From: Bryum argenteum | Lineage: Eukaryota; Streptophyta; Bryopsida; Bryales; Bryaceae | DNA: 64,000 bases | Direction: 5' to 3' | Assembly: GCA_037043015.1 (NCBI GenBank) | Contig: CM073322.1 | Coordinates: 8,257,601 to 8,321,600, forward strand | Part shown: one piece after another, positions 5,286 through 54,554 of the stretch | Layout: each line of letters opens with the position of its first letter | Position numbering within the stretch: the stretch's first letter is position 1 | Translations under genes and position numbers: made by a program | The notes under the pieces: model-generated | What the model was told of the DNA's origin: nothing | Database searches by the model: none | Seen by the model: the letters and a program-made list of their open reading frames with translations, nothing else

Positions 5286-7727
5286 CTAAAGCTCTTGGTG
5301 GTGGTGGCTTGATTGCTGACCCCAAACAGCTTGCGGAGGAGGGCGAGCAGGTTGATTCCGTCCCATGGGAAACTGCCAGAACTTATCTGACAAGCTGGAC
5401 TCCGAGAATGCAAAAAACAGGATCGCTGACACGATGATCATGCCGATCAGCATCGCATACAACTGCCACTCTGCAATCAAACAAAACATACCATCAGTAA
5501 AATGCCATAGCTCCAACAAAATTGCTTGAAAGCCAAGTCTATTCATTCTATTCAAAGAGAATGTGAACTTGCCTCTCCATTCTGATTTCTGCAGCCGAGT
5601 GATTCGAGCAGTTGTATCGGATCCCACCGAGAGGAGTGACCTGAAAACAAACTCAATCCAATGAACCGCGTTACTTCTCTCTCTCTCAAACTCTCGATCA
5701 TTACATGGGAGTGGCAACCCCAGAATTCATAGCAGAATGGTCGCACGAAGAAAACCGAGAGGAACACTTTGGTTAACGAGTTAAAGCTTCGGTGCCCGAT
5801 TGCTAAACCCTACTGGTGAACTTCACATGATGGAATCTGCTCTCGTTTCTATGCTCTGGGCAAGCGGGTAACCTTAGTTTCTTATTCGAATTAGATCTAA
5901 AACAGTGCTGGTTGTCTATGATGCTGTATAAATGTCATCCTCCACAACTTTGAAGGTAATTACACAAGAAGGGGTTATTTTACGACATCGGAGTCGGAAA
6001 TTGAGCCCACAACCATCGCATTACTGGAGAAATGATATACTTGGATGTTGAGGTTTTTTCAGAACCTAGATTGGCGCAAGAGTTTACCTTCCGTGTTTTG
6101 AAAACGCAATGTCGGTGACAGGTGATGTGTGAGCGCTTCGGGATATCTGAATTGCGTCCATCTTCTTCACTACAACTACTATCAAATCGCCTTCGCTGGT
6201 TCCCCTGCACATCACGTCCAAGCTTTCAGTTCCATGCAGTCTGTGAAATTTGTAACAAAGTAGGATAGATGACTTACAAGCCCATCCATTTTCCATTTCT
6301 AGACACAGCGAGCGACGTAATTGGGTCATCAGATAGCTTCTTCGCCCCGATGCGGCTCCAATCTACCATATTCCAAACGCCTACGTAACCCCTCTTGCCT
6401 GCATTCGAACGAATCAAGATTAGACACACACCAGTAAACAAAAGCACTTTTTTATCAAACCAGTAGAGGCTACTCTCACCCTTCGTGATTGAGACGAACA
6501 AGAAAGCCTGTGAACCATCTTGTGAGAATCTGCAGCAACTGAATTTCTCATCCTGCAGCACACACAACATTCGTTTCAGTAAGAAACTGAATCGCGATAC
6601 AGTCTCGAAGATGTGTTCGTTTAAGATGGTCGGAGATCTAACCTTGTCTTTTTGCAATTGGGCTATGGATTTTCCTGTGGCGAGGTCCCAAACACGCACT
6701 GATGCATGATCGTCAGCCATCGACGCCACATACGCAGAATCATAACTGCAACAACAATCATCGAAGCTCAATCATCGAACCACATTCTGTGATCGATAGA
6801 CTACTGAAAAAAAGCAGATTTCGATGTGAAGAGTTGTTTTACCTGATATCGAAATCATGAATTGATTTATGCGCCTTTGGTTCATTCAGTGCAATTTCGC
6901 ACGTAGGCCACGCGAATACTCGAAGGTGACCATCCTGCCCACAATATTCACAAATGCAAAACATCAAACAAAAGAATGCTCTCTGCTAACACATGTCAAG
7001 ACGATCAGAACAGGATTGATTACAAAATGCTGGAAAAAGAGAGGATGCAATGTACCTTGCCACCAGTGACTAACACCGAACCATCGATATTGAAACGGAC
7101 GCCAGTCTGAAGTCCAAGGCCCTGAAGCTTCGAAAGATCGAGCTCCGAAGCTTTCAGCTGCACCGGACCACCCTTAGGGTTTATTATATCGTAATACCTG
7201 CAGGAAATAAAAGAAGCAATTCCTTTCCTGTCAGATTCGCAAATTCAGATCGAAATCCACCGACATTGATGCATAAATCTTTCAAAACGAAAGTACTAGT
7301 GAAAGGAAGACTCACTTGCAAGTATTGGCAAAGACACACAAGACTCCTGATCCAGTTGGATGCACTACAAGCTGCAAAGGCCGACCATCCTCTGTCCCGA
7401 TTGCATGTACCTGCAAAAACCACAATTGCTAAAGAATCTAGCAACCCTAATCGAGGATGCACACCGATCACATTCATGTACAAAAAAAAGAATATGGGTA
7501 TTGTTGCCAATACTTACAGTGTCAGAAAGAGTATCGGTATCGAAATTGTACTCTCGGACGGCGACTCCGTTCTGGTCGTTCTCACGACCATAAAGGACTA
7601 AAGCGGAGGGCGCATCGGTGACACTTCCGGCACGCTGCGGCACCCACGCGCCACAGACAGCCTCGGAGTCTTCATTTCTGGAGGTCGGGCGAGTGAACTT
7701 CACCCTTGGCTTCTTACTCCCACTCAT
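5286..7727 (-). CDS. PHF1: SEC12-like WD40 protein (PHF1/STL1 type), 10 exons
   Basis: Exons: 7518-7727, 7316-7410, 7056-7197, 6843-6934, 6643-6745, 6480-6552, 6278-6398, 6088-6204, 5573-5640, 5286-5470 (1206 nt, 401 aa, phases close). WD40-like blades fill residues 20-335, with PKAHKSI, VRVWDLATG and CRFSQDG blocks. A single transmembrane helix at 342-362 starts WQLYAMLIGM, followed by a short lumenal tail with FWQFPMG. This layout and wording match PHF1/SEC12-like 1, the ER protein related to the SAR1 exchange factor SEC12 that lets phosphate transporters leave the ER in Arabidopsis. The typical glycine-rich SEC12 K-loop is not obvious, as in PHF1, so it may not be an exchange factor. The intron between exons 9 and 10 starts GC (AGAG|GCAAGT), a regular GC-AG intron. 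Confidence 0.88.
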
Positions 7728-23533: not shown

Positions 23534-23537
23534 TTAA

Positions 23538-24264
23538 CCCTTAAATGCCCAAGCAAGCCCGAGGGGCATGATTCCAACAAAATCTTCCATGTAGCTCTTA
23601 CAGTACTCAACTTCTCACTTATATTTTGATGTCAAACTGGTCACCGTCTTGTGATGCATTCAAAAAGTGAAATTTTACAATTCAAATCACAATTTGTATG
23701 TATGATTATATGGTTTGAAAGGATTGTGGTAGGTAGGTTGGGGTTGTACATAACCTTGTAGGAGGTTGCAAGCGCATCATTGATTGGTTCATTCATGGTG
23801 CCCAAGTTCGAAAAGTGCACTATTTATGATGCCCAAGTCCAAAAGATGTTGTGATCCAATTTTGGGCTGCCCGTTTTAGACCCCATGGACGTTTAACCCT
23901 TAAACGCCGAAGGTGACTCGAGGGGTCGTGTTCCAAGAGAATCTTCTCTGTAGCTCTCAATATACTCAACTTTTTACTTATATTTTGATGTCAAACTGGT
24001 CAGCTTCTTCTGATGCATTCAAAAAGTAAAATTTTAGAATTCAAATCACAATTTGTATGAGTGATTTTGTGCATTGAAAGAATTGTGGTAGGTAGGTTGG
24101 GGTTGTACAATACTTGTAGGAGGTTGCAAGCTCATCATTGATTGGATCATTCATGATGCCCAAGTTCAAAAAGTGCACTATTCATGATGCCCAAGTGCAA
24201 AAGATGCCGTGATCCAATATTGGGCTGCCCAAATCCGTATAGCTAGGCGTTTAAGGGTTAAGGG
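23538..24264 (+). mobile_element. TTAA-flanked MITE copy 1 (360-bp family), interrupted by copy 2
   Basis: Left flank TTAA 23534-23537, then CCCTTAAATGCCCAAGC. It runs to 23896, is interrupted by copy 2, and resumes as GGG at 24262-24264 before its right flank TTAA at 24265-24268. The interior matches copies at 30046 and 37665 (GATGCATTCAAAAAGTGAA, GATTGTGGTAGGTAGGTTGG). No open frame, so non-autonomous. Confidence 0.85.
23897..24257 (+). mobile_element. TTAA-flanked MITE copy 2, inserted in copy 1
   Basis: 361 bp from CCCTTAAACGCC to GGCGTTTAAGGG, with TTAA on both sides (23893-23896 and 24258-24261). The left TTAA belongs to the GACGTTTAA of copy 1's right terminal repeat, and GGGTTAA of that repeat follows the right TTAA. 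This places the insertion exactly at an internal TTAA of copy 1. Confidence 0.88.
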
Positions 24265-24269
24265 TTAAG

Positions 24270-36183: not shown

Positions 36184-36187
36184 TTAA

Positions 36188-36412
36188 CCCTTAAAGGTCT
36201 GAACAACCATATTTTGGTTGCCAGAATACAACGTATTTTGTTTGTATTGGAATGAGTGCACACCTTTAATAGATTTGAGTTCAAAGAACAAGTTGACATA
36301 TAAATCCATGCGGTTCTACTAAGCTTTTAAGATCTCAATATAGAGTTTCTTGTTGGTAGCAAATCTCAATTATACGCCACCGTACATACTATCCCCAAGG
36401 GACCTTTAAGGG
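36188..36412. mobile_element. TTAA-flanked MITE, CCCTTAAAGGTC ends, 225 bp
   Basis: TTAA (36184-36187) then CCCTTAAAGGTC; right end GACCTTTAAGGG then TTAA (36413-36416). The interior is unrelated to the 360-bp family. Bases beyond the two TTAA do not repeat, so TTAA is the only target duplication visible. Confidence 0.8.
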
Positions 36413-36416
36413 TTAA

Positions 36417-37660: not shown

Positions 37661-37664
37661 TTAA

Positions 37665-38028
37665 CCTTTAAACGCCTAAGCAAGCCCGCGGGGCTTGATT
37701 CCAACAGAATCTTCCCTGTAGCTCTCACTGTACTCAACTTCTCACTTATATTTTGATGTCAAAATGGTCACCTTCTTCTGATGCATTGAAAAAGTGAGAT
37801 TTGACAAATCGAATCACAATTTGTATGAGTGATTTTGTGCTTTGAAAGGATTATGGTAGGTAGGTTGGGGTGGTACATAATCTTGTAGGAGGTTGCAAGC
37901 TCATCATTGATTGGTTCATTCACAAGTTGCCCAAGTTCAAAAAGTGCACTATTCATGATGCCCAAGTCCAAAAGATGCTGTGATCCAATTTTGGGGTACC
38001 CGTTTTAAACCCCATGGGCGTTTAAGGG
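37665..38028 (+). mobile_element. TTAA-flanked MITE, 360-bp family
   Basis: TTAA (37661-37664), CCTTTAAACGCC to GGCGTTTAAGGG, TTAA (38029-38032). 364 bp; the interior is close to the 23.5 and 30.0 kb copies. Confidence 0.85.
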
Positions 38029-38032
38029 TTAA

Positions 38033-54490: not shown

Positions 54491-54495
54491 ATTAA

Positions 54496-54550
54496 CCCTT
54501 AACCGCCCAGCCCCTCTGAAAATACAGGGGCATGCTTGGTCGTTTAAGGG
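54496..54550. mobile_element. 55-bp TTAA-flanked mini-element
   Basis: TTAA (54492-54495), CCCTTAACCGCCCAG ... CTTGGTCGTTTAAGGG, TTAA (54551-54554). Almost the whole unit is a hairpin, with CCCCT and AGGGG pairing around a short loop. It looks like a MITE reduced to its two ends. Confidence 0.7.
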
Positions 54551-54554
54551 TTAA

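Follow-up and report, generated by a model that had tools for sequence, protein, structure and literature searches.

The DNA analysed here, a stretch of 64,000 nucleotides referred to as the window, contains at positions 23534 to 24268 two MITEs, one of which lies inside the other. The locus raises the question of how the inner copy came to its position, and of which transposon superfamily moved the two.

Nested MITEs and the flanks of their relatives

The following features were distinguished at the locus, together with a relative of the outer element elsewhere in the window.

23534..23537, + strand: TTAA, left target-site duplication of copy 1 (read from the bases)
23538..23896, + strand: main part of copy 1, the host MITE, CCCTTAAATGCC...GACGTTTAA (from the bases, alignment, and inverted and direct repeats)
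23893..23896, + strand: internal TTAA of the right terminal repeat of copy 1, target of copy 2 and left duplicate
23897..24257, + strand: copy 2, the inserted MITE, 361 bp, with ends CCCTTAAACGCC / GGCGTTTAAGGG
24258..24261, + strand: TTAA, right duplicate from the insertion of copy 2
24262..24264, + strand: GGG, remnant end of the right terminal repeat of copy 1
24265..24268, + strand: TTAA, right target-site duplication of copy 1
37661..38032, + strand: relative of copy 1 (both TTAA included), its uninterrupted right end serving as a proxy for the empty site

The right terminal repeat of copy 1 is broken after GACGTTTAA at position 23896, where copy 2 starts. Copy 2 is followed by TTAA and then by GGG and a further TTAA, which complete the right end of copy 1. 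The initial annotation had placed copy 2 inside this terminal repeat, and the bases match that reading exactly. The two copies can be aligned over their whole length, with 84% and 92% identity in the direct-repeat blocks. The inverted repeat of copy 2 together with its TTAA comprises 16 nt and is 100% complementary. For the empty site, which had been proposed as a check, the uninterrupted sister end at 37661 to 38032 stands in: it has the same CCCCATGG just inside the right end and carries GGGCGTTTAAGGGTTAA unbroken. Judged by this comparison, the intact end is the state expected before copy 2 entered.

It had further been claimed that exactly one TTAA was duplicated. The doubling of TTAA was confirmed, but because TTAA is symmetric, the geometry by itself would equally fit a duplication of TA or TTA, the element then being longer by one or two bases. 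TTAA is taken as the duplication on account of the invariant flanks and the piggyBac transposase described below, and not of the geometry alone.

The genome assembly comprises 258.8 Mb in 25 contigs, among them C1 with 44.1 Mb and C11 with 7.0 Mb. In a genome-wide search, TTAACCCTTAAACG was found at 5945 sites, compared with 4 for the reversed pattern, and exact CCCTTAAACGCC ends numbered 4219, compared with 26 for the reversed pattern of the 12-mer. In the window, CCCTTAAACG with at most one mismatch occurred 16 times, where 2.5 occurrences were expected. The figures for TTAACCCTTAAACG and for the window exclude a chance origin of the ends. TTAA precedes 3775 of the 4219 exact CCCTTAAACGCC sites (89.5%), a count made with no selection on the flank; the other 444 ends have no preceding TTAA. 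One such end, at L005, shows a TTTT flank beside an otherwise normal end; the target there may have mutated or may have been a different one. It is also the exception among the retrieved loci, where TTAA was present at 82 of 83 distinct end contexts, a figure biased by the choice of some loci with patterns that contain TTAA.

A similarity search with the body of copy 2 returned 2328 first-look candidates, and scoring of the best 40 gave 40 full-length matches (copy 2 included) plus 3 partial ones. A table of flanks, suggested in the initial annotation, was drawn up for the 30 full-length copies retrieved, which include copy 2 and were chosen by body similarity, hence not by flank. TTAA stood directly on both sides in all 30, as the claimed target would have it; this count excludes 12 partial matches. 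Two more full-length relatives within the retrieved loci likewise had TTAA on both sides. Among 22 copies of 361 bp (L016 to L038 except L030, which holds several nested copies), there were 14 identical copies and 8 distinct sequences, and copy 2 differed from the 22 at 16 positions on average. These copies rank among the most query-like and describe one subfamily, L009 to L015, which are nearer to the query, lying outside the set. On the evidence of their sequences, this subfamily of near-identical 361-bp copies must have spread recently.

Transposase-carrying elements with the same ends

A search of the assembly for PF13843, the domain of the piggyBac transposase, yielded 775 first-look candidates. 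All 116 matches that were scored lay over the cut-off, the best with an E value of 7.4e-82, and 93 of them contained no internal stop (counted from the rows). In 14 control genomes (identities not stated), the domain was found in none. The 30 best-scoring loci were grouped by single linkage at 75% identity, which gave 11 groups in all: nine loci formed lineage A, and the other 21 fell into ten more groups. These 21 loci lie among L039 to L068, and most of the ten groups have long open frames.

With up to two mismatches allowed, 7 of the 9 lineage-A loci have an CGTTTAAGGGTTAA-type end in the 1.5 kb that follow the domain, compared with 1 of the 21 loci of the remaining groups (Fisher p = 1.3e-4). 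The two lineage-A loci lacking it over this distance are L060 and L066, and a similar end is present at L065, a locus outside lineage A. For the non-A lineages, similarity boundaries in the 1.5-kb flanks gave no clear ends.

The locus L040 contains a stop-to-stop frame of 897 residues, with the first Met at residue 12, between exact TTAACCCTTAAACG ends at C1:23339974-23339987 (+) and C1:23345159-23345172 (−). These ends are 5,199 bp apart edge to edge and were found again with the 16-base end; we infer that they form a pair, from a sequence read that excludes the far 1.3 kb. L069 and L070, two further members of the lineage of L040, each show both ends around the transposase frames within a single 7-kb stretch, at lengths of 4,950 and 5,412 bp with TTAA counted in. 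Two mismatches are present in the L070 left end, and the L069 frame is shifted upstream of the domain. At L071 and L072, the right end alone was found within 7 kb and the left end was not.

The L040 frame matched 6x67 with an E value of 2e-29 and piggyBat 9c0f with 7.7e-24; 6x67 and 6x68 we take to be the piggyBac transposase from Trichoplusia ni. By alignment and hand count, the L040 residues facing 6x67 positions 268, 346, 447, and 450, presumably the catalytic positions, are all aspartate. Across the 30 loci, aspartate occupies these columns 30, 29, 30, and 29 times, respectively. Position 268 is mentioned in a figure legend as well. Behind the domain, 21 of the 30 loci, L040 included, have the full C-terminal Cys/His pattern. 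The nine loci without it are L039, L041, L043, L052, L055, L061, L063, L065, and L067, some of them being cut short or deviating by one residue. The initial annotation had proposed a search for a longer element with the same ends, coding for a DDD transposase with a cysteine-rich C terminus, and such elements are thus present. The moss elements resemble those of 6x67 and 9c0f in the TTAA target, the CCC ends, the PF13843 DDD domain, and the Cys-rich C terminus. They differ in the length of the frame, which in L040 has a long N-terminal extension (chains of 594 and 578 for 6x67 and 9c0f), and from the reference of the piggyBac superfamily in the moss host and in CCCTTAAACGCC ends that hold an internal TTAA. 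In a search for viral relatives of the transposases, a 12-sequence alignment led to 18 pattern-matching stretches, of which 0 were confirmed.

The CCCTTAAACGCC ends are common to the MITEs and the transposase-carrying elements. Beyond the 12-bp repeat, the adjoining 100 bases were compared in 42 comparisons, each assessed against 200 dinucleotide shuffles, and three scores exceeded every shuffle. The left end of copy 1 scored 19.5 with the left end of L069 (shuffles ≤14.0) and 17.0 with that of L070 (≤13.0), and the left end of copy 2 scored 16.0 with that of L069 (≤13.0). The left end of copy 2 with that of L070 reached 13.0, which did not exceed the shuffles (up to 14.0). The relative at 37661 gave 14.0 with the left end of L069 (shuffles to 15.0) and 13.0 with that of L070 (to 13.0). 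Right-end comparisons never exceeded the shuffles, their similarity beyond the repeat consisting of the GGGCAGCCC motif alone, and the left ends of the MITEs showed no match to the right ends of the partners.

Because transposase frames lie between the same ends, and because left-end sequence is shared, the MITEs are assigned to piggyBac. TTAA duplication, short inverted repeats starting with CCC, a DDD transposase of the DDE_Tnp_1_7 type, and a Cys-rich C terminus are all found here, so that the superfamily named in the initial annotation is borne out. Copies 1 and 2 are almost certainly miniature, non-coding piggyBac MITEs mobilised in trans, with the lineage-A transposase as the probable mover.

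Nesting, mechanism, and alternative explanations

The nested junction GGCGTTTAACCCTTAAACG occurred 70 times genome-wide and 0 times as the reversed pattern. The junction of the window itself reads GACGT and hence lies outside the 70. Inspection covered six nested loci, that of the window and five of the 70, and the matching right junction was present in all six, with one mismatch in L076 and L030; the inserts measured 233 to 372 bp. Under uniform targeting, roughly 6 nested junctions would be expected, on the assumption of about 2970 elements and some 1.42 million TTAA sites, the latter extrapolated from 351 in the window. The excess may stem from target preference, local hopping, selection against genic insertions, or tandem duplication. 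At C4:13696185-13696918, three nested-type junctions run in one direction at spacings of 359 and 356 bp, possibly as a tandem MITE array.

In the mechanism that we propose, lineage-A piggyBac elements of about 5 kb with CCCTTAAACGCC ends would supply the transposase in trans. Copy 1 would have been the earlier insertion, into a TTAA site, after which copy 2 could have entered the TTAA in the right end of copy 1, doubling it, because the repeat CCCTTAAACGCC itself holds a TTAA. In known piggyBac elements, strand transfer proceeds via a 4-base TTAA stagger, and the same would presumably apply here.

Alternatively, recombination between MITEs or tandem duplication might have produced the nesting, and the array-like junctions on C4 (13696185, 13696544, and 13696900) suggest that such processes may act at some loci. 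At the present locus, however, copy 2 is complete and has both its ends, the end of the host element resumes exactly behind it, and TTAA is doubled; the matching right junctions of all inspected loci point in the same direction. We therefore regard an origin of the nest without insertion as highly improbable. If insertion is accepted, the superfamily has to be considered. Kolobok and Sola3 also duplicate TTAA, and this duplication by itself cannot separate MITEs of these superfamilies from piggyBac MITEs. The long same-end elements that were read, however, carry piggyBac transposase frames, and the left-end sequence beyond the repeat is common to the MITEs and two of these piggyBac elements, which makes an assignment to another TTAA-duplicating superfamily scarcely credible.

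A third possibility is that the MITEs belong to Tc1/mariner or PIF/Harbinger and duplicate TA or TTA within a preferred TTAA context. Given the symmetry of TTAA, the nesting geometry alone would allow such a shorter duplication if the element were correspondingly longer. This reading is opposed by the four bases that are invariant on both sides of 30 of 30 copies and by the transposase between the ends, which is that of piggyBac. Published moss Tc1-like elements, moreover, are described in the available text as having CAGT ends and TA duplications (PMC4054914). We consider this assignment extremely unlikely and retain that to piggyBac.

The distribution over the contigs is uneven. C1 (44.09 Mb) holds 94 of the 5945 TTAACCCTTAAACG ends by hand count, compared with about 1013 expected from its length, and 5 of the 116 scored transposase matches and 0 of the 70 nested junctions lie on it. 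The density of TTAA was 6.87 per kb in ten C1 loci and 5.94 in 29 others. As this density is not low, the low load of C1 does not look like a shortage of targets.

Host, known systems, and further elements of the window

The host is marked as a moss by LEAFY, for which one clear match was found on C5. Over 107 aligned residues, its DNA-binding domain shows 5 differences from 4bhk, which we take to be Physcomitrella LEAFY. Four weaker SAM_LFY matches lie on C9, C10, and C3, the two on C9 being 5 kb apart.

The initial annotation regarded piggyBac as unusual in land plants. It is correct that the host is a land plant, but the superfamily has already been listed for this group. In the portions of the literature available, PiggyBac appears among the superfamilies found in all groups studied, including land plants (PMC4438587), and among the MITE superfamilies of angiosperms (PMC10004981); plants are named among the organisms yielding piggyBac (PMC10813416), and one PiggyBac copy is given for a grass (PMC8319324). 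The repeat table of the fern Ceratopteris contains 1230 PiggyBac copies with 122,417 bases (PMC6890710). Animal piggyBac, treated there as a tool and not as a native element, was described in 2017 as excising cleanly in rice and as then untried in the moss Physcomitrella (PMC5505980). A survey of 207 plant genomes places MITEs in five superfamilies plus Micron, and the available main text contains neither piggyBac nor TTAA (PMC12550479). Niphotrichum japonicum (PMC10619864) was rejected as a source of piggyBac, both occurrences in the text at hand being the word "piggybacking". Among the matches listed for piggyBac with moss, bryophyte, or land plant, a search without Repbase and with few subscription papers, no paper was recognised by title or abstract as dealing with a native moss piggyBac; an earlier description of such elements may exist.

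Like the angiosperm PiggyBac MITEs, as far as these are described in the text available (PMC10004981), the MITEs of the window show the terminal repeats and target duplication on which that assignment was based. They differ in being accompanied, within one moss genome, by coding elements that share their ends. Ceratopteris, like the moss, is a land plant outside the seed plants; its repeat-table entry (PMC6890710) counts copies, whereas the present figures are 116 scored transposase matches, 93 of them stop-free. PpTc1 and PpTc2 of Physcomitrella, as characterised in the available part of PMC4054914, are DNA transposons that likewise amplified recently in a moss, but have CAGT ends, TA duplication, and a DD34E transposase. 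A Tc1-like identity, known from a moss, was rejected in view of the CCCTTAAACG ends and TTAA flanks.

The superfamily is thus a known one, and the case is notable for its host, copy number, diversity, and apparent youth. PiggyBac is better known from animals, and reports from land plants are sparse. With its open transposase frames, thousands of matching ends, and near-identical MITEs, the moss would represent a native plant piggyBac system and could serve to test the route of piggyBac into land plants. The TTAA within the terminal repeat makes the element a target for its own kind. With somewhat less than even confidence, we suggest a wider reading: a recently and perhaps still active piggyBac population of several lineages, which nests in its own ends about 10-fold above uniform expectation and largely spares a 44-Mb contig, and which is of a kind new to the plant literature searched.

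Two further elements of the window have TTAA flanks.

36184..36416, + strand: 233-bp element including TTAA flanks, with ends CCCTTAAAGGTC
54492..54554, + strand: 63-bp element including TTAA flanks, approximately two ends back to back

The element at 36184, whose ends showed no homology to those of the transposase elements compared, may derive from another source. The 63-bp element has one mismatch in its left end. Within the retrieved locus L001, positions 1501 to 2481 are occupied by an element of 981 bp with CCCTTAAACGCCC ends, the right one with one mismatch, and TTAA flanks.
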